Positions 17,486 to 29,361 of a stretch of 37,183 nucleotides of DNA are shown one piece after another (position 1 is the stretch's first letter; every line of letters begins with the position of its first letter). The notes under the pieces are model-generated. The model saw only the letters and a list, made by a program, of their open reading frames with translations. It had not been told where the DNA came from and ran no database searches. Source of the stretch: Sulfuritalea sp. (GTDB lineage Bacteria > Pseudomonadota > Gammaproteobacteria > Burkholderiales > Rhodocyclaceae); assembly GCA_030651305.1 (NCBI GenBank), contig JAUSCI010000062.1, positions 1 to 37,183 of the forward strand, read 5' to 3'. Position numbers and translations under genes: made by a program.

Positions 17486-18610
17486 ATGGACTTCAACTAC
17501 ACCGAAGAACAACTCGCACTGCAGAACACCCTGCGCCGTTTCATTGCCAGGGACTACCCTTTCGAACACCGCCGCGCCCTGGCCAAATCCGCCGACGGCT
17601 TCGATCGCGCGGCATGGAAAACTTTCGCCGATTTCGGCATCCTCGCCCTGCCATTCCACGAAGATTTCGGCGGACTGAATGGCAACGCCGTTGACACCAT
17701 GCTGGTCATGGAAATGCTCGGCCGCGGCCTCGCGCTGGAACCCTATGTGTCGACTGTCGTGCTCTGCGGCGGCCTGATTCGCGACGCCGGCAGTGCCGCG
17801 CAGAAGGAAGCGCTGCTGCCCGCGATTGCCGGCGGCGAACTGATGCTGGCGCTGGCGCACTTCGAACCTGGCGGCCGCTACGAACTCGACCGTGTCGCCA
17901 CCACTGCCAGCGCTACCGGCTCCGGCTGGCAGCTCGACGGCGCCAAGGCCGTCGTGCTGGGCGCACCGGCCGCCGACAAGCTGATTGTTTCGGCCCGCGA
18001 TGGCAGTGGCATCTCCCTGTTTCTGGTCGACGCCAAGGCTCCCGGCGTCACGCTGCGCACCTACCCGACGCAGGACGGCGCCCGCGCTGCCGACATCAGG
18101 CTGAGCAAGGTCATGGTCGGCGCCGACGCGCTGCTCGGCACCGCCGGCAACGCGCTGCCGGTGATCGAACGCGCACTCGACTACGCCAATGCGGCGTTCT
18201 GCGCCGAGGCCGTCGGCATCATGTCGGCGCTCAACGAAGTCACCCTCGAATACCTGAAGACGCGCAAGCAGTTCGGCCAGCCGATCGGCAAGTTCCAGGC
18301 GCTGCAGCACCGCATGGCCGACATGGTGATCGCCACCGAGCAGGCTCGCTCGATGGCCACGCTGGCCGCGGTGCGCGTCGATTCGGCCGATGTCGCCCTG
18401 CGCAACCGGTCGGTCGCCGCCACCAAGGCCTATGTCGGCGCCCAGGCCCGCTTCGTCGGCCAGCAGGCGGTGCAATTGCATGGCGGAATGGGCGTGGTCG
18501 ACGAACTCAACGTCGCCCATTACTTCAAGCGCCTGACCATGATCGGTCTCACCTTCGGCGACGCGGACTACCACCTCGGCCGCTTCAGCGACACCCTGCT
18601 CGCAGCATGA
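17486..18610 (+). CDS. pimD: Acyl-CoA dehydrogenase, PimD-like small subunit
   Basis: Second acyl-CoA dehydrogenase chain, 374 residues, resembling pimeloyl-CoA dehydrogenase small subunits. Seen: the N-terminal helical domain with LALPFHEDFGGL (51-62 region), a divergent middle domain, and the C-terminal FAD/helix region RKQFGQPIGKFQALQHRMADM and QLHGGMGVVDELN. By my alignment the helix-G position holding the base in PimC is an alanine here, and the C-terminal YEGT is absent. It is therefore probably a non-catalytic or FAD-sharing partner, as in the known alpha2-beta2 dehydrogenases of steroid side-chain breakdown. It is 3 bp after pimC, and its stop overlaps the next start (ATGA). Confidence 0.85.
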   Translation: MDFNYTEEQLALQNTLRRFIARDYPFEHRRALAKSADGFDRAAWKTFADFGILALPFHEDFGGLNGNAVDTMLVMEMLGRGLALEPYVSTVVLCGGLIRDAGSAAQKEALLPAIAGGELMLALAHFEPGGRYELDRVATTASATGSGWQLDGAKAVVLGAPAADKLIVSARDGSGISLFLVDAKAPGVTLRTYPTQDGARAADIRLSKVMVGADALLGTAGNALPVIERALDYANAAFCAEAVGIMSALNEVTLEYLKTRKQFGQPIGKFQALQHRMADMVIATEQARSMATLAAVRVDSADVALRNRSVAATKAYVGAQARFVGQQAVQLHGGMGVVDELNVAHYFKRLTMIGLTFGDADYHLGRFSDTLLAA

Positions 18611-20406
18611 CCAGCCAGATTGTCAATCGCAGGGATCTCGAATTCCAGCTCTTCGAGGTGCTCGATGTCGAATCACTGACGACCCGCCCGCGCTACGCCG
18701 AGCACAGCAGGGAAACCTTCCTCGCCGTGCTCGATACCGCCGAGGCAATGGCCACCGAGAAGTTCGCGCCACACAACCACAAGGCCGACGAGCACGAGCC
18801 AACCTTCGACGGCCAGCGCGTGCACATGATTCCCGAGGTCAAGGAAGCGCTGAAGGCCTTCTGCGACGCCGGTTTCATCGCCGCGGCACATGACTTCGAA
18901 CGCGGCGGCATGCAGTTGCCGGTGGTCATGACGCAGGCGGCATTTTCGATGTTCAAGAGTGCCAACGTCGGCACCGCGGCCTATCCCTTCCTCACCATCG
19001 GCAACGCCAACGTCATTCACCGCTTTGGCAGTGAGGCGCAGCACCGCAAGTATCTCGACGCCCTGCTCACCGGACGCTTCTTCGGCACCATGGCGCTGAC
19101 CGAGCCGCAGGCCGGTTCCAGTCTGTCCGACATCACCACCAGCGCCACGCCGAATGCCGACGGCACGTATTCCCTCAGCGGCAACAAGATCTTCATTTCC
19201 GCCGGCGACCACGACCTGTCGGAGAACATCATCCACCTCGTGCTGGCCAAGATTCCCGGCGGCCCACCCGGGGTCAAGGGCATTTCGCTGTTCATCGTGC
19301 CCAAGTTCCGCGTCAATGACGACGGCACACTCGGCCCGAAGAACGATGTGACCCTGACCGGCCTGATCCACAAGATGGGCTATCGCGGCACCACTTCGAC
19401 CATGCTGGCCTTCGGCGAAAAGGGGCAATGCCTGGGCGAACTGGTAGGCGAGCCGCACAAGGGCCTCGCCTACATGTTCCACATGATGAACGAGGCCCGC
19501 ATCGGCGTCGGCATGGGCGCCGTGATGCTGGGCTATCGCGGCTACCTGGCCTCGCTGGAATACGCGAAAGAGCGCCCGCAGGGTCGCGCGCCGACCAACA
19601 AGAATCCGGCCGACCCGCAGCTGCCGATCATCGAGCACGCCGACGTGCGGCGCATGCTGCTGGCGCAGAAAGCCTATGTCGAAGGCGGCTATGCACTGTG
19701 CCTGTATTGCTCGCGGCTGGTAGACGAGACGAAAGTCGGCGTTGGCGATACGGCGAAACAGGAAGCCGGCCTGCTGCTCGACCTGCTGACCCCGATCGCC
19801 AAGTCCTGGCCGTCGCAGTGGTGCCTCGAAGCCAACAGCCTCGCCATCCAGATCCACGGCGGCTACGGCTATACCCGCGAGTATCCGGTCGAGCAGTTCT
19901 ACCGCGACAACCGCCTCAACCCGATTCATGAAGGCACCCACGGCATCCAGGCGCTGGACCTGCTGGGGCGCAAGGCGGTGATGAATGGCGGCGCGGCGAT
20001 GAAGCTGTTTGCGCGCGAAGCGCGGCAGACCATCGCCGAAGCGCAAACCGACGCCGCCCTTGCCGGCTACGCGACGGAACTCGGCGCCGCGCTCGCCGAC
20101 GTTGCGGCCACGCTGCAGGCGCTCAGTCCCGTGCTGGCGAGCAACCCGACCCTGGCGCTGGCCAACGCCGTGCTGTTCCTCGAAGCCTTCGGCCATACCG
20201 TGCTGGCCTGGATCTGGCTCCACCAGGCGCTGGCGGCGCAGCGCGGATTGCAGCATGGCCTTGCGATCGACGCCGACTTCTATCGTGGCAAACTGGCAGC
20301 CTGCCGCTGGTTCTACCGCTGGGAACTGCCCAAGACGAAGCAGTGGCACGAACTGTTGCGCAGCCTCGACGACACTACCCTGACCATGCCTTCGGAATGC
20401 TTCTAA
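18607..20406 (+). CDS. Large DmdC-type acyl-CoA dehydrogenase
   Basis: FAD-dependent acyl-CoA dehydrogenase of the long (about 600 residue) class, 599 residues here, with an extra N-terminal helical segment and the C-terminal acetyl-CoA-dehydrogenase-like domain. Seen: ALTEPQAGSSLSDI (163-176), IFISAGDHDLSENIIHLVLA, HKMGYRGTTS (255-264) and the catalytic base E442 in NPIHEGTHGIQALDLLGRK. DmdC acts on methylthiopropionyl-CoA, but many relatives act on medium or long-chain acyl-CoA, so the substrate cannot be assigned. It is the third dehydrogenase in the operon and may act on a later intermediate. It overlaps the pimD-like stop by 4 bp and lies 4 bp before the crotonase. Confidence 0.9.
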   Translation: MTSQIVNRRDLEFQLFEVLDVESLTTRPRYAEHSRETFLAVLDTAEAMATEKFAPHNHKADEHEPTFDGQRVHMIPEVKEALKAFCDAGFIAAAHDFERGGMQLPVVMTQAAFSMFKSANVGTAAYPFLTIGNANVIHRFGSEAQHRKYLDALLTGRFFGTMALTEPQAGSSLSDITTSATPNADGTYSLSGNKIFISAGDHDLSENIIHLVLAKIPGGPPGVKGISLFIVPKFRVNDDGTLGPKNDVTLTGLIHKMGYRGTTSTMLAFGEKGQCLGELVGEPHKGLAYMFHMMNEARIGVGMGAVMLGYRGYLASLEYAKERPQGRAPTNKNPADPQLPIIEHADVRRMLLAQKAYVEGGYALCLYCSRLVDETKVGVGDTAKQEAGLLLDLLTPIAKSWPSQWCLEANSLAIQIHGGYGYTREYPVEQFYRDNRLNPIHEGTHGIQALDLLGRKAVMNGGAAMKLFAREARQTIAEAQTDAALAGYATELGAALADVAATLQALSPVLASNPTLALANAVLFLEAFGHTVLAWIWLHQALAAQRGLQHGLAIDADFYRGKLAACRWFYRWELPKTKQWHELLRSLDDTTLTMPSECF

Positions 20407-20410
20407 GAAC

Positions 20411-21193
20411 ATGAGCGATCCCCACATTCTCGTCACCGATAGCGACGGCATCGTCACCATCGAGATCAGCCGCCGCGAAAAGAAGAACGCCCTCACCGGC
20501 GACATGTATCGCGCGATGAGCGCAGCGCTGTGCCATGCGCGCGAGCAGCACCACGTCCGGGTGGTGCTGATTCGCGGCCAGGACGACCTGTTCACCGCGG
20601 GCAACGACCTTGGCGACTTCCTGCACCGCAAGGCCGGTGACCCCAGCGCCGCGATCCCCTTTCTGCATCTGCTGGCCGCCTTCGAAAAGCCGCTGGTCGC
20701 GGCCGTCGCCGGCAATGCGGTCGGCATCGGCACGACATTGCTGCTGCATTGCGACCTGGTTTACGCCGCCGAGAATGCGAAATTCCAGTTGCCCTTCGTC
20801 AATCTCGCACTGTGCCCCGAAGCCGGTTCCAGCCTGCTGCTGCCGCGCGTCGCCGGCCACCAGCGCTCCGCCGAACTTCTGCTGCTGGGCGAGCCCTTCG
20901 ATGCCGCCGTCGCACGCGAGGCAGGCTTCGTCAATCGCGTCGTCGCCGCCGACAAACTGATGGATACCGCACTCGCGGCTGCGACAAAGCTCGCCGCCCT
21001 GCCGGCGCAATCGCTGGCCGTCACCAAGTCACTGATGAAGCGTCCACCCGACCGCAGCGCGCTGGAAGCGATGGACGAGGAGGTGATCTTTTTTTCCGAC
21101 TTGGTAGCCGAGCCCGCCGCCAAGGAAATATTCAGCGCCTTCCTCGAAAAGCGCCAACCCGACCCCACGAAAATTCACGGACACAAAGCATGA
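20411..21193 (+). CDS. Crotonase-family protein, probable enoyl-CoA isomerase
   Basis: A 260-residue enoyl-CoA hydratase/isomerase superfamily member. The oxyanion-hole segments are present (FTAGNDLGDF at 61-70, and VAGNAVGIGTT at 99-109). Both glutamates of true hydratases are missing: T108/T109 and F129 take their places. A glutamate in CPEAGSS (E137) is kept, as in delta3,delta2-enoyl-CoA isomerase-like members. It is therefore more likely a double-bond isomerase than a hydratase; hydration could fall to the MaoC protein in the same operon. The stop overlaps the thioesterase start by ATGA. Confidence 0.83.
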   Translation: MSDPHILVTDSDGIVTIEISRREKKNALTGDMYRAMSAALCHAREQHHVRVVLIRGQDDLFTAGNDLGDFLHRKAGDPSAAIPFLHLLAAFEKPLVAAVAGNAVGIGTTLLLHCDLVYAAENAKFQLPFVNLALCPEAGSSLLLPRVAGHQRSAELLLLGEPFDAAVAREAGFVNRVVAADKLMDTALAAATKLAALPAQSLAVTKSLMKRPPDRSALEAMDEEVIFFSDLVAEPAAKEIFSAFLEKRQPDPTKIHGHKA

Positions 21194-21649: not shown

Positions 21650-22369
21650 ATGCAGAAGATCCACGTCCTGCTGAAGAAGGAAGAACTTGACGCCCAGCGC
21701 CTCGAAGGCAAAGTGGTGGTGGTGCTCGACATCCTGTTCGCCACCTCGTCCATCGTCACCGCACTGGCCCATGGCGCCACTGAAGTCATCCCGACCCTGG
21801 ATGGCCGCGCGGCGCAGGAAGCGGCAAAGCAATTCCCGGCCGGCTCCTACGTGCTGTCTGGCGAACTCAACGCCGAAACCCTGACCGGCTTTGTGCACCC
21901 GACACCCCAGGCACTGCTGAAGGAAGGCATCGCCGGCCGCCGCCTGATCTATTGCACCACCAACGGCACCGTGGCGCTGGCCAAGTCGAAGAGCGCCGCC
22001 CATGTCTATGCCGCGGCACTGCTCAACGGCCGCGCCGTAGTCGAGCGCATCGTCACGCAGCATCCGGACAGCACCATCCTGATCGTCTGTTCCGGCTCGG
22101 CCGACAATTTCAACCTCGAAGACTTCTACGGCGCCGGCTACCTGGTTTCGCTGTTCCGCCGCCGTGCCACCAGCGCCGACTTCTCAGATGCCGCGCTCGC
22201 GGCAGAACTGTTACACGACCACTGCGATGGCCTCGACGCCCTGCGCCGCGCCCGCGTCGGCCGCATGATGCTGGCGCGCAAGCTCGACGCCGAGGTGGCC
22301 TTCGCCGCGCAGGAAAGCTGTTACGACGTCGTGCCGCTGCTACAGGACGGCGCGCTGCGCCCCGTTTGA
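21650..22369 (+). CDS. Divergent ComB-family (2-phosphosulfolactate phosphatase-like) protein
   Basis: A 239-residue protein with the ComB fold pattern: VVVVLDILFATSSIVTAL (22-39), TTNGT (103-107) and CSGSADNFNLEDFYGAGYLV. Known ComB proteins remove phosphate from 2-phosphosulfolactate in coenzyme M synthesis. Here the family's arginine after the DV/DI motif is F30 and the usual GERGG is GELNA (71-75), so that activity is doubtful. No coenzyme M or sulfolactate gene is nearby. It lies 4 bp after the thioesterase and 25 bp before MaoC, with codon use like its neighbours, so it belongs to the operon. It may act on another phosphorylated acid; function unknown. Confidence 0.75.
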   Translation: MQKIHVLLKKEELDAQRLEGKVVVVLDILFATSSIVTALAHGATEVIPTLDGRAAQEAAKQFPAGSYVLSGELNAETLTGFVHPTPQALLKEGIAGRRLIYCTTNGTVALAKSKSAAHVYAAALLNGRAVVERIVTQHPDSTILIVCSGSADNFNLEDFYGAGYLVSLFRRRATSADFSDAALAAELLHDHCDGLDALRRARVGRMMLARKLDAEVAFAAQESCYDVVPLLQDGALRPV

Positions 22370-24460: not shown

Positions 24461-25273
24461 ATGGAATTCACCACCCTCGAAGTCAGCCTCGACGCCGGTG
24501 TCGCCACCGTCGCGCTGAACCGGCCGGACAAGGCCAACGCCATGAGCGAGCCGATGTGGTACGAAATCGAGCAGGCCATGGAGTGGCTCGACGCCACGCC
24601 CGAAGCCCGCGTCGGCATCATCACCGGGCGCGGCAAATATTTCACCTCGGGTATCGATCTGACCATGCTGATGGGCGTCGGCGCCCAGATCGAAGACGAT
24701 TGCGACGGTCGTCGCCGCGAAAAGCTGCGCCGCCTGATCCTCAGGCTGCAGGACACCCTGACTTCCATCGAGCGCTGCCGCAAACCGGTACTGGCGGCCG
24801 TTAACGGCGCCTGCATCGGCGGTGGCATCGACCTCGTCACCGCCTGCGACATGCGCTACTGCGCGTCCAATGCCTGGTTCACCGTCAAGGAAATCGATGT
24901 CGGCATGACCGCCGACGTCGGTACCCTGCAACGCCTGCCGCGGCTGATCGGCGAAGGCATGGCGCGTGAACTGGCCTACACCGGCCGCCGCGTCGATGGC
25001 ATCGAGGCGCAGAAGATGCACCTGGTCAACCGCTGCTTCGAGACCCCCGACGCGCTCCACGCCGGCGTCATGGAAATCGCACGGACCATCGCCGCCAAGT
25101 CGCCGCTCGCTATCCGCGGCTGCAAGGAAATGATCACCTACGGCCGCGACCATTCGGTAGCCGACGGCCTCAACTACATCGCCACCTGGAACGCCGCGAT
25201 GCTGCTGTCGAAGGACCTGTTCGAAGCCGGCGCGGCGAACATGCAGAAGCGCGAGCCGGTGTTCAAGGACTGA
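24461..25273 (+). CDS. Delta3,5-delta2,4-dienoyl-CoA isomerase-like crotonase
   Basis: A 270-residue crotonase matching the ECH1 subfamily. The three acidic catalytic residues of rat ECH1 (D176, E196, D204) match D124 ([10 protein letters not shown]), E144 (VKEIDVG) and D152 (TADVG) with identical 20- and 28-residue spacing. [10 protein letters not shown] (61-70) gives the oxyanion hole. It should shift 3,5-dienoyl to 2,4-dienoyl-CoA, a step needed for odd-position double bonds, which suggests an unsaturated or ring-derived substrate. ATG 24461 has AAAGGA upstream. Five bp later the hydrolase fragment begins. Confidence 0.9.
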
Positions 25274-25278
25274 GCCGC

Positions 25279-25428
25279 ATGGAGCACTTGTTCGCCCCGG
25301 TCAATGGCATCCGCCTGCATTGCGTCGCGGAAGGAAAGGCCGACGCCCCGCTGATGCTTTTCGTCCATGGCTTTCCCGAGTTCTGGTACGCGTGGAAGAG
25401 CCAGCTCGACGAGTTCGGCAACTATTAA
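25279..25428 (+). pseudogene. Truncated alpha/beta hydrolase (epoxide hydrolase-like), 5' fragment
   Basis: ATG 25279 to TAA 25426-25428 encodes only 49 residues. They match the start of epoxide-hydrolase-type alpha/beta hydrolases: [11 protein letters not shown], then the oxyanion motif [10 protein letters not shown] (34-43) and QLDEFG. Normal members run on for about 240 more residues with nucleophile, acid and histidine. Here the sequence stops just where the APDLRGY-type strand should follow, and the opposite-strand hemerythrin gene begins. The start spacing (5 bp after the dienoyl isomerase) shows it was the operon's next gene. It cannot be a working hydrolase. Confidence 0.8.
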
Positions 25429-26069
25429 GCCGCCGGCGGCGACACCTTTTCCGCACGCATCTGTTCGACAAGCGCGGACATCTCGCGCAAATCAGCTTCC
25501 AGCTTGCTGTTCGCCTCGGTCAGGGCCCGCGTGCGCTCGTCAATCTTCCGCTCGAGTTCCTCGTTGACGCGGCGCAGTTCGGCGAGCAGGTGGCGCTCCG
25601 AATCGGTCAAATCGTCGGCAACGTGCTGCATCAGCGCCGCTGCGACGCGTGCCGCCAATGCGGGATCCGACGCATTGAGCTGATGCGCCATCGCCCGGTC
25701 GACGACGACGATGTGATGCAGGAACCAATGCACCAGGTACTCGATCAGGACCACCGAGACGTTGCGCCGTCCGGTCTCGAAATCCGCCGTCAGGTCCTTG
25801 AGTACGCTGCGAAAGTAAGCATGTTCGCCGCAATGGCGGGTAACCAGTTCGGGCGAGCAACCGCCACCGGCCATCAGGCGCTCTTCGAGGCCGAAATGAT
25901 CGCGCACGTAGTCGTTGAGTTCCGCCAGCAGCCTGCGCGTTGCCTCCGGCCGGTAATCGCCGTGAGTTTCGGCGTCGAGTCCGTTGATCATGCCGATCAG
26001 CTTGCGGTGCTGATCGTCGATCTCGGCAATTCCGACAGCGAATTCCTGTGTCCACTCAATGATGTTCAA
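25425..26069 (-). CDS. Hemerythrin-domain protein with coiled-coil tail
   Basis: A 214-residue protein read from a TTG at 26069, chosen because AGAGGAG stands 7 bp upstream and the family start ([12 protein letters not shown]) follows at once. The bacteriohemerythrin domain (1-130) has the diiron ligands: H21, H58 and E62 (HFGLEE), H79 and H83, H118 or H119 in HWFLHH, and D124. It should bind O2 reversibly, as sensor or carrier. Residues about 155-205 form a coiled coil ([20 protein letters not shown]) like the linkers before histidine kinase or cyclase domains, but no output domain follows. The stop codon abuts the hydrolase stub. It may be a cut-down sensor, or it may work through a partner. 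Confidence 0.85.
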
Positions 26070-26181
26070 GTCTTGTCTCCTCTGACCGGATGCGCATCCT
26101 TGTATGCGGGCTTTCAGGTGCTGCACCGTCCTGCCAATCACGGCATATGATGACATGGATTCGGGATTTGCAAAACCTCTG

Positions 26182-26222
26182 CAAGGTCCGACGCACAGCA
26201 AATTTTCGGCGCGCGGACCTTG
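26182..26222. repeat. 9-bp inverted repeat between OsmC and hemerythrin genes
   Basis: CAAGGTCCG (26182-26190) and CGGACCTTG (26214-26222) are exact reverse complements separated by 23 bp. It lies just after the osmC-like stop on the minus strand and upstream of the hemerythrin gene. The loop is long and only a short T run follows, so it is a weak terminator candidate; a regulator site is equally possible. Confidence 0.35.
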
Positions 26223-26242
26223 GCGAATGGTGCCATGCCGGC

Positions 26243-26722
26243 TCAGCCGGCGAGCACTACGGTCGGCTCGATCGAGACCGGGAAATTCACCGAATTGGCA
26301 ATGAAGCACAGCCGGTGCGCGTTCTCGTGCAGCACCGCCGCCTTTGCCGCATCGCCGCCCGCCGCCAGTGTCGCCACCGGTCGCAGCACCGCCTGCGTAA
26401 AGCGCCCGCCGCCATCGGCGTCTTCCACCATCGTGCCCACGGCGGCGTCGTGATAGGCCAGTACCGAAATACCTGCCTGCGCGCACAGGTGCAGATACCA
26501 AAGCATGTGGCAGGACGACAGCGAGGCCAGCAGCAAATCTTCCGGATTCCAGCGCGACCCGTCGCCGCGAAACGCCGGATCGGACGAGCCCGGCAGGTCC
26601 GGCCGGCCCGCTGCGGTGATCACATGGTCGCGGGCATAGGCGCGGTAATTCGTGGTGCCTTCGCCGAGGTTCCCGGTCCATTCGGTGCGGATGGCGTAGG
26701 TATGCTGTTTGTCGTGGGACAT
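26243..26722 (-). CDS. OsmC/Ohr-family protein
   Basis: A 159-residue OsmC-like thiol peroxidase relative. Seen: an N-terminal W/G-rich strand (EWTGNLGEGTTNYRAY), GDGSRWNPEDLLLASLSSCHMLWYLHLC with the peroxidatic-type cysteine in SSCHM, and a C-terminal half LRPVATLAAG...AHRLCFIANSVNFPVSIEP. The second cysteine lies in HRLCF, as in OsmC-type proteins. It would reduce organic hydroperoxides or protect against oxidative stress; substrate unknown. It lies between hemerythrin and HD-GYP genes on the same strand. Confidence 0.88.
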   Translation of the reverse strand: MSHDKQHTYAIRTEWTGNLGEGTTNYRAYARDHVITAAGRPDLPGSSDPAFRGDGSRWNPEDLLLASLSSCHMLWYLHLCAQAGISVLAYHDAAVGTMVEDADGGGRFTQAVLRPVATLAAGGDAAKAAVLHENAHRLCFIANSVNFPVSIEPTVVLAG

Positions 26723-26838
26723 GTGAGAAGTCGCTTGCGGTCACGGATCGGGAAATATTGTAATGCCGACCCGACTGGCTGATCGACCTGCGCACGCCGC
26801 GGCAACGCAACAGCTCAGCCGTTCCTGCGCCACCGCCG

Positions 26839-28074
26839 TCAAGCCGGATGCAGTTGCGCCAGGCGGTACACCTCTTGCAGATGTGCCGCGATGACGTCGT
26901 AAATGAATCGATCCAGAAGCCCGTCCTCGGTCATCTGCTTCATGTGGTCGAGGACCAGTTGTGCCGGCAGCGCGCAGCGGTATGGGCGATCCTGGGCCAA
27001 GGCCTGGAAGATGTCCGCCGCGCGCAGCACGCGAGCCTGAATCGGCACCTCGTCTCCTTTCAGTCGAAATGGATAACCTTCGCCGTTCGGCGTTTCGTGA
27101 TGGAACGAAGCCCAGCGCGCAATGTCCTCGAAGCCCGGGATGCGCGACAGGATGCGGTAGGTTTCGTAGGCATGGCCGGCGACCTGCCGCCGCTCACTTT
27201 CGGTGAGTGGCCCCGGCTTGTCCAGAATGAAATCGGGGATGCGCAATTTGCCCAGGTCGTGCAGATAACCGGCAAGTTCCAGCTTGGCGCAATCCTCAAC
27301 GTCAAGCTCGTTGCTTTGCCTGAGGATGCCGCAAAGATATCTGGCAATCCTGGCAACGCCCTCGGAATGCTCCACGGTGAAGCGGCTTTTTGCATCGACC
27401 ACATGCGAAAACAGGCTGGCCACGCCGCGCAGCACTTCGAGGCTGGCCTCGCTTTGGCGTGCCTGGCGAAAAATCCGATCCATATAGTCGCGAACCTGAC
27501 CGGCTTCCAGGGCGAGCCAGAATGCCTCCTTGCCGGAGACGTCGAGAAAGACTTTGACCAGATCGGGATCGAACATCCTGCCTGACTGTTCGACTATTTT
27601 CGCGGTTATCGCCGGGATCTGCTCCGTGAGTTCGTTGTTCAGCATTGCGACCGCCGCAAGAACGTCGACACGGTCAGCGAGGAAGATCAGGTTGCCAATC
27701 ATCTCGGCTCTTCCGTAGTGCTCCCTCAATTCGGTCCAGTGCGTGTGATGCAGGCGAATCGGCGTCGCCAGGTGAGCCAGCGGAGGAAACCCGGCGAGCA
27801 GGCTGGCCCCCAATTCGGCATGGCCCTCCGAGCCCTCCCAGTCAAACTCCTCGACAAGTTGACGATGGAGATCCGAAGATGAAACGCCAATGTCGTGGAG
27901 CAGGCAGGCGTCGAACACCATGTCCTGTTCGTCCTGGCCCCAACCGAGGCGCCGCACCATCTCGACCGCCATGATGCCGACGCGCTTGCCGTGGTGTACG
28001 TCGTTGATGCCAACCAGATCCAGGGAATCGGACAGGGCATGGACGACACTGCGGAGATTTACGAATAGAGGCAT
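26839..28074 (-). CDS. Tandem HD / HD-GYP c-di-GMP phosphodiesterase
   Basis: A 411-residue soluble protein with two HD domains. The N-terminal HD (about 20-150) has H28, the pair H60-D61 (LLHDIG), H85 and H109-H110. A linker (about 150-220) leads to the HD-GYP domain (about 222-400) with H236, H272-D273 (YLHDLGK), H301, H325-H326 and ETPNGEGYP (327-335), then D354. All ligands look intact, in contrast to the degraded HD-GYP gene at 13.3 kb. It should hydrolyse c-di-GMP (or cGAMP). It has no membrane sensor, so its signal is likely a ligand or partner such as the hemerythrin encoded downstream (inference). A TAAACT before the ATG is a possible -10. Confidence 0.9.
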   Translation of the reverse strand: MPLFVNLRSVVHALSDSLDLVGINDVHHGKRVGIMAVEMVRRLGWGQDEQDMVFDACLLHDIGVSSSDLHRQLVEEFDWEGSEGHAELGASLLAGFPPLAHLATPIRLHHTHWTELREHYGRAEMIGNLIFLADRVDVLAAVAMLNNELTEQIPAITAKIVEQSGRMFDPDLVKVFLDVSGKEAFWLALEAGQVRDYMDRIFRQARQSEASLEVLRGVASLFSHVVDAKSRFTVEHSEGVARIARYLCGILRQSNELDVEDCAKLELAGYLHDLGKLRIPDFILDKPGPLTESERRQVAGHAYETYRILSRIPGFEDIARWASFHHETPNGEGYPFRLKGDEVPIQARVLRAADIFQALAQDRPYRCALPAQLVLDHMKQMTEDGLLDRFIYDVIAAHLQEVYRLAQLHPA

Positions 28075-28119
28075 ACACGAGCGGGGTCACCGCCCACTAT
28101 TTTGAAACTCGCCGCCAGT

Positions 28120-28161
28120 TTACCCCTGCTTCGTCGGCAGCGGCGGCTGGTAGTCGCTCAT
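28120..28161 (-). pseudogene. Probable remnant of an acyl-CoA dehydrogenase start
   Basis: Three bp after the thiolase stop an ATG at 28161 opens a 13-residue ORF, MSDYQPPL followed by PTKQG and a TAA. The first eight residues look like the N-terminus of the acyl-CoA dehydrogenases that follow thiolase or FadB genes (MSxYxxPLRDMRF pattern). The match breaks after residue eight and nothing of the remaining ~590 residues follows. Evidence is short, so confidence is limited, but context and start spacing agree. Confidence 0.4.
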
Positions 28162-28164
28162 ATG

Positions 28165-29361
28165 TCAGCCGCTGACGCGCAACACCACCGCCATGCCTGA
28201 ATCGCCCGCGGCGCAGCCGCCGAACAGGCCAACACCGCCGCCGCGCATGGCCAGTTCCTCGATCAGTTCAATCACGCTGCGCAGGCCCGTGGGGCCCTGC
28301 GGATGGCCCCAGACCAGCGAGCAGCCGTAGTTGTTCATCTTCTCCAGCGGAAAGCCGGTGGCGCGGGCGAAGGCAATGTCGTTCACAGCGAAGGGATTGT
28401 GCGTCTTTACCGCGTCGACATCCTTGATCGTCAGTCCGGCATTCTTCAGTGCCTCCAGTGCGGCCGGCGCCACGGCCAGCGGCATGTGGCCCTTTTCCAC
28501 CCGCGCCTGGCCGAAGCCGAGCAGTTCCACCTGGATTTTCGGATCGGTCGAGAACTCACGCGCCAACTCGCGCGTGGTGACGATCATGCCGGCGTTGCCG
28601 TCGGCCGGATGCGTCTGCGAGCCGAAGGTTACGGTGCCGTTGGGCAAAACCGGCTTGAGCTTGGCGAGTCCCTCGGCGGTCGTCGCAAAAATCCCTTCAT
28701 CAGCCGACAACAGGCCGGTTTGCTTGCGAAAGCCGGCATCGGTGATCGGCACATCGACCATGTAGCGCCGCTGAAAAGCGCGGTCATTCGCCAGGGCATC
28801 CTGGTACTGGGCGTAGCGCGCCAACGCGACTTCGTTCTGCTCGGCCGTGCTGGCACCGATTCGGGCCACCGCGTTCTCGGCCGTCTCGATCATGGCATTT
28901 TTCGCGTAAGGATCGCGGGCGAAGTTGTCCAGCACCCAGCGCTCGGTGTGGCCGCTGCCGCCCGGCGCAGTAGCATCCGGGTAATACACGATGGGGCCGT
29001 TGGAACAGCGGTCGGTGGTAATCAGCAAGGCACATTGCGACGAGCCGTCGGCGACCTCGCCGGCAGCCATCTGCAGAACGCGGGCGCTGGTGGCGCAGGC
29101 CTGCTGCACCGTCGGTCCGGCCACATTTTCCAGGCCCATCAGGCCGGTTACATAGGGCAGGCCATAGAAGCTGCCAAGTTGGGGATTGGTGTGACCGAGG
29201 ATGCCCAGATCGATGCGTTCCAGCGGGAACTTCCTCGCTTCCAGCGCCTGCTTGCCGGTATTGGCAGCAAGTCGCAGGCTGTTGAGGTGGGCAATGGAAC
29301 CCTGCCACTTGGCAAAGGGCGTGGACCAGTACTGGCCGTAGGGAATGAATGCGTGTGCCAT
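28165..29361 (-). CDS. Thiolase (acetyl-CoA acyltransferase)
   Basis: Thiolytic cleavage of 3-oxoacyl-CoA to acetyl-CoA and a shortened acyl-CoA. The 398 residues show the nucleophile C89 (QQACATSARV), the catalytic H353 in GCSLVWGHPQGPTGLR and C383 in GGCAAGDSG, plus the THNPFAVND segment (320-328) equivalent to NEAFA. The GHP and C-x-G motifs vary from typical FadA (GGGC replaced), so this is a divergent clade. ATG 29361 follows AGGAG. It is 15 bp after the FadB-like gene. Substrate unknown; the operon suggests an aryl or alicyclic 3-oxoacyl-CoA. Confidence 0.9.
   Translation of the reverse strand: MAHAFIPYGQYWSTPFAKWQGSIAHLNSLRLAANTGKQALEARKFPLERIDLGILGHTNPQLGSFYGLPYVTGLMGLENVAGPTVQQACATSARVLQMAAGEVADGSSQCALLITTDRCSNGPIVYYPDATAPGGSGHTERWVLDNFARDPYAKNAMIETAENAVARIGASTAEQNEVALARYAQYQDALANDRAFQRRYMVDVPITDAGFRKQTGLLSADEGIFATTAEGLAKLKPVLPNGTVTFGSQTHPADGNAGMIVTTRELAREFSTDPKIQVELLGFGQARVEKGHMPLAVAPAALEALKNAGLTIKDVDAVKTHNPFAVNDIAFARATGFPLEKMNNYGCSLVWGHPQGPTGLRSVIELIEELAMRGGGVGLFGGCAAGDSGMAVVLRVSG

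Follow-up and report, generated by a model that had tools for sequence, protein, structure and literature searches.

The window, i.e., the whole stretch of DNA analysed here, is contig C51 (37,183 bases) at full length, one of 82 contigs in the draft genome G000 of a Sulfuritalea sp. (97.59% complete, contamination estimate 3.43%). It was compared with the genomes of the genus, 31 with G000 included; several of these are only 70–90% complete, so absences there are soft. On the plus strand lies a catabolic operon whose annotated genes include an acyl-CoA dehydrogenase, a MaoC-type protein, an AMP-ligase, and an enoyl-CoA hydratase. The hydratase (24461–25273, plus strand; Pfam ECH_1, 9.8e-46) is its last intact gene. 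Five bases behind it follows an alpha/beta-hydrolase stub of 49 codons (25279–25428, plus strand). Its TAA stop (25426–25428) overlaps the stop of a minus-strand bacteriohemerythrin gene (25425–25427), as the initial annotation had stated. The bacteriohemerythrin (25425–26069; Pfam 4.1e-13) has a long C-terminal tail, and its start codon is uncertain (TTG at 26069 was chosen by eye). Next come an OsmC-like protein (26243–26722, minus strand; Pfam OsmC, 6.3e-16) and a 411-aa protein with HD and HD-GYP domains (26839–28074, minus strand; Pfam HD_5, 1.5e-35). A 13-codon open reading frame (28161–28120, minus strand), of which the first 8 codons are acyl-CoA-dehydrogenase-like, separates these genes from a thiolase (28165–29361, minus strand). 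The thiolase is the last intact gene of a minus-strand operon, which continues beyond it with a FadJ-type protein, an ABC-transporter ATPase, and, further along, an AMP-ligase.

The hemerythrin, OsmC, and HD-GYP genes between the two short reading frames are all on the minus strand. This agrees with the initial annotation except in one point: what had been listed as HD/HD-GYP genes is a single gene, whose product has its HD domain at the N-terminus and its HD-GYP domain at the C-terminus. The gaps along the minus strand are 90 bases between thiolase and HD-GYP, 116 between HD-GYP and OsmC, and ~160–175 between OsmC and hemerythrin, and the GC content is even across the region, at 0.60–0.64. 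Within the plus-strand operon, the window also carries a gene of the 2-phosphosulpholactate phosphatase family (21650–22369; PF04029, 2.8e-57). A match to it at ≥50% lies upstream of the hydratase in 17 of 20 larger genus loci.

Three joins can be placed in this arrangement. The left join (25421–25429) was located from blastn blocks against the relative G004, with 7 bp between the matched blocks. At the middle join (26780–26853), a conserved block stops ~58 bp upstream of OsmC and the HD-GYP block starts. The right join (28074–28137) lies between the HD-GYP start and the putative dehydrogenase remnant.

At the left edge, the stub aligns (E 2.0e-23, 76% identity) with codons 1–50 of the 298-aa alpha/beta hydrolase found in a relative; on its own, it gives no Pfam match above the cut-off (best EHN, E 0.038). 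The hydrolase of G004 belongs to Abhydrolase_1 (PF00561, 4.4e-27), and the best NCBIfam matches of the hydrolase include haloalkane dehalogenase models, all far under their cut-offs. A match to the hydratase at E ≤ 1e-60 is present in 28 of the 31 genus genomes, G000 included, and the locus was read in 27 of these (G026 is without a read locus). Behind the same hydratase, 22 of the 27 carry a full hydrolase of ~298 aa. The remaining five are G021, where the gene is cut by the contig end after 286 residues, G012, G016, and G029, which are without a hydrolase there, and the window itself.

The window is collinear with G004 up to 25421 and again from 25429, and 785 bp of G004 (L051 3961–4745) are absent between these points. 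By this comparison, ~0.78 kb has been lost in the window, from hydrolase codon ~48 through the hemerythrin stop. In the window, hemerythrin ends one codon earlier than in G004 and G010 and is otherwise homologous to its end, which indicates that the deletion extended as far as the boundary of the neighbouring gene. G000 has no second hydrolase that is close to this one; the next best place has 31% identity over part of the protein. An intact orthologue at the same position, collinear flanks, and a gene that has not been relocated in G000 (97.59% complete) mark the stub as a deletion remnant.

Over its first 46 codons, the stub has a mean identity of 0.819, the 16th lowest of 24 sequences and on par with intact copies. 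As it is no more diverged than these, the deletion looks recent. The unique bases in the stub at codon positions 1, 2, and 3 number 1, 1, and 1, which are very small numbers. A tree built from 27 hydratase rows places the window with G004, G010, and G016 (support 90/87) and pairs G012 with G029 (100/98). Given this tree, in which 12 of 24 inner branches are open, the hydrolase was, with reserve, lost from its place behind the hydratase at least three times.

The genes next to the stub belong to the usual surroundings of this hydrolase. Among the 22 genomes with a full hydrolase, a minus-strand hemerythrin stands behind it in 15 (2.3 kb farther away in G018). OsmC does so in 17, and 5 have OsmC but no hemerythrin. 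Altogether, 20 of the 22 have one or both genes there. In the other two, G003 and G007, neither gene lies within the ~600 bases read behind the hydrolase, and an OsmC match is found further along the same contig in both. Because hemerythrin and OsmC habitually stand behind an intact hydrolase, their sequence context marks them as old, inherited neighbours of this gene in the genus and not as an insertion.

Upstream of OsmC, the order departs from that of the relatives. In G004, a CZB-domain gene and further genes occupy this place, and the same genes are found in G000 on contig C35. The first gene on this contig is a CHAT-domain gene (PF12770, 2.3e-11), represented by its 3′ end, and the CZB-side genes lie behind it. 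In the gap that precedes OsmC in G004, ~40 bp have matches on either side of the break (window 26738–26780, C35 193–235). The two copies differ widely, as judged by eye, and the doubling may be a relic of the event or a coincidence. In the 17 loci surveyed (L038–L058), the longest reading frames on the upstream side of OsmC differ from one locus to another, with one gene of ~310 aa recurring in at least four, so the gap seems tolerant of rearrangement. Beside OsmC, only the HD-GYP gene and the right-hand operon are new.

The HD-GYP protein carries the motifs HDLGK and HHETPNGEGYP. The signature of HD-GYP c-di-GMP phosphodiesterases is HD plus HHExxxGxGYP. On motifs and Pfam domain, the gene is a predicted c-di-GMP phosphodiesterase. 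Its nearest relatives (72–77%) are in G007, G027, G001, and G015 (the last partial), at other places, and their surroundings in G007, G027, and G001 have nothing in common with the window except the gene itself. In G004 and G010, there is no match at E ≤ 1e-80. The relative in G007 (L107 3366–8526) has a chemoreceptor gene (MCPsignal, 9.6e-45) on one side and genes resembling those of homocitrate synthase and serine acetyltransferase on the other, a neighbourhood that is probably of a nitrogen-fixation type.

At the right edge, the 13-codon reading frame runs from ATG 28161–28159 to TAA 28122–28120 (MSDYQPPLPTKQG). It opens with MSDYQPPL and continues with unrelated codons. Full dehydrogenase paralogues in G000 start with MSSYTAPLKDMQFVL and MGQYIAPLRDMQFVL. 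Of all 1278 ATG starts in the window, counting both strands, 1 fits the pattern M..Y.[AP]PL, namely the right stub; the pattern was written after the stub had been seen. Three dehydrogenase paralogues in G000 are full, with 54, 43, and 40% identity to the G035 protein mentioned next.

In G035, which belongs to another genus, a full acyl-CoA dehydrogenase of 593 aa follows the thiolase. In G004, a reading frame of 57 codons follows, and its first ~36 codons correspond to a dehydrogenase start (MWGHHPPLRDTRCILKELAGFNRIACLPGCEEP). In G010, a thioesterase (4HBT_2, 1.9e-13) stands there instead, and in G033 no dehydrogenase-type start was seen behind the thiolase. The blastn match between G004 and the window runs through the remnant to 28137. 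Eight codons are too short to prove ancestry by themselves, but the match through them, together with longer homologues at the same place, makes it very probable that they are the remnant of a dehydrogenase. The dehydrogenase similarity ends at one codon in G004 and at another in the window, and the sequence that follows is not the same in the two, so the dehydrogenase would have been lost either independently in the two or in steps that continued after they parted. We also surveyed the neighbours of the thiolase in 64 rows at ≥60% identity, taken from the best 80 loci of a longer list plus G004, G010, G035, and the window, with two records duplicated. The next gene varies; by eye, a thioesterase-like reading frame comes next in 10 of the 64 rows. 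The dehydrogenase-start motif appears only in the G035 record (two rows) and in the window, and the G004 remnant departs from the motif.

The initial annotation had read the short frames at both edges as truncated genes, and the relatives bear this out. Aligning the region with related genomes, as it had proposed, located the uninterrupted hydrolase at the same place in 22 of 27 genomes, and the dehydrogenase as ~36 codons in G004 and as 593 aa in G035. The 8-codon dehydrogenase-like start was correctly seen, although it forms the beginning of a frame of 13 codons.

The thiolase operon has a different location in the closest relatives. A thiolase at >90% identity is found, besides the window, only in G004 and G010 (97% in both), i.e., in 3 of the 31 genus genomes, some of which are incomplete; the other genus genomes have thiolase matches of ≤60% at E ≤ 1e-100. 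In G004 and G010, the end of the operon lies near smc (SMC_N, 1.5e-63 and 3.7e-64), with zipA behind smc in G004 (ZipA_C, 2.1e-30). The smc region of G000 is on contig C66, where homology stops at 20763 and the contig continues to 26412 (5.6 kb) without a thiolase; the thiolase matches in G000 are only on C51 and C70. As the dehydrogenase is also reduced in G004, where the operon adjoins smc, its loss need not have occurred at the window junction. Beyond smc, almost every genome of the genus has a different sequence, which does not fix the order of events or the direction in which the operon moved.

Behind the remnant in G004, a stretch of ~175 bp (L089 7141–7314) is 73% identical to L216 1785–1958 (G000:C29:54284–54457). 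It is followed by the gene of a DUF1003 protein in G004 and, as judged by eye, by a different reading frame in C29. The stretch may be a shared leader or a cassette-like element. For the idea of an integron cassette behind the G004 remnant, the DNA fold of this sequence proved to be of modest stability (z −1.93, equalled by 12 of 200 shuffles).

When the window segment 25200–28250 was compared with the 31 genus genomes, the non-self matches listed end at 25421–25429, 26780–26853, or 28074–28137, or earlier. None of the matches listed from the 30 other genomes spans even one of the three joins, which makes the joins specific to G000 within the genomes compared. Each of them is seen in one draft assembly (82 contigs). 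The genes named at 24.4–31.5 kb include no transposase or integrase, and the repeats found are weak and short, with no clear target duplication, in line with the initial annotation on both counts. For the right join, the 77 bp at 28066–28142 were searched as a possible element end. In 61 genomes, they gave only weak, short matches (E 0.016–1), which did not exceed ~35 bases except in the window itself, and the 72,556 plasmids contained no match. Within these searches, no insertion-sequence end was found at the right join.

We consider it highly probable that the region is a rearrangement scar from at least two separate events. In the one, a deletion of ~0.78 kb removed hydrolase codons ~48–298 and the short gap behind them, stopping at the hemerythrin stop codon and leaving the hemerythrin whole; comparison with the relatives shows this loss. 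In the other, the gap upstream of OsmC was broken. The neighbour that precedes OsmC in G004 is now found on C35, with another gene ahead of it, and its former place is occupied by the HD-GYP gene together with the 3′ end of the thiolase/FadJ/ABC-transporter operon. The break is visible on both contigs, and its mechanism was most likely illegitimate recombination, which we favour since neither an element nor long homology was seen. The terminal dehydrogenase would have been cut to 8 codons before or during this second event.

Two truncated genes at two edges also suggest a single insertion, in which hemerythrin, OsmC, and HD-GYP entered as one 2.7-kb block and cut a gene on either side. The initial annotation had treated the block as such a unit, and here we depart from it. 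In 20 of 22 relatives, an intact hydrolase is already followed by hemerythrin, OsmC, or both. HD-GYP is distributed separately, G004 and G010 each carry the two operons on different contigs, and the repeats are short and weak. We give this explanation almost no credence. From the replacement, insertion, or deletion proposed earlier for the operon junction, deletion and rearrangement are retained, and insertion is dropped for hemerythrin and OsmC. A mobile element that brought the HD-GYP gene and the operon and was later lost would account for the different places of the operon in G000 and in G004/G010, and the ~40-bp stretch on both sides of the OsmC break might then be an old duplication. The two copies of this stretch differ widely, however, and no element end for 28066–28142 was found in the genomes or plasmids searched, which makes such an element unlikely.

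It is rather improbable that one or more of the joins are assembly errors. They come from a single assembly of 82 contigs with a contamination estimate of 3.43%, and among the matches listed they occur in none of the 30 other genus genomes. Yet the loss on the left is clean, internal, and ends at a gene edge, and the other half of the OsmC gap, which follows the end of the CHAT-domain gene within C35, likewise has new surroundings. With both halves in new contexts, the middle join would need more than one independent error. Preferring separate events, we regard the region as ordinary genome rearrangement, seen in one draft assembly.

Both operons lack their last gene, and the two stubs are likely non-functional. 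The HD-GYP, OsmC, and hemerythrin genes are oriented as the thiolase operon is. Because of this common direction and the gaps given above, read-through transcription from the thiolase operon into the three genes is possible. A simple scan of 25.0–28.5 kb gave 0 promoter-like sites, where shuffles lead one to expect 1.1, and 0 terminator-like sites, where they lead one to expect 3.0. It could be argued further that a c-di-GMP phosphodiesterase gene has been fused to the 3′ end of a catabolic operon, and that substrate-induced read-through lowers c-di-GMP in this one species. If true, the fusion would couple fatty-acid-type catabolism to motility or biofilm exit; we think this very unlikely. The finding is ordinary and of little weight in itself. 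It offers a worked case in which two stubs resembling the edges of one insertion turn out, once relatives are compared, to be separate events. It also adds to the losses of the last genes of both catabolic operons, each of which was lost more than once: the hydrolase also in G012, G016, and G029, and the dehydrogenase by reduction in G000 and G004.

The ends of bacterial operons can carry deletion remnants in the form of gene stubs. The window shares with such remnants a 3′-truncated gene, an intact orthologue at the same position, and a whole neighbour, and differs only in that two stubs, 2.7 kb apart, come from separate events. Compared with Abhydrolase_1 hydrolases (PF00561), the left stub corresponds to codons 1–48, and all after ~48 is gone, presumably including the catalytic parts, which we expect in the lost portion. 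The 8-codon remnant on the right resembles the starts of acyl-CoA dehydrogenases with a C-terminal Acyl-CoA_dh_C domain (PF12806), such as those of G035 and of the window at 18607–20406, and differs from them in that the rest of the gene is absent in the window.
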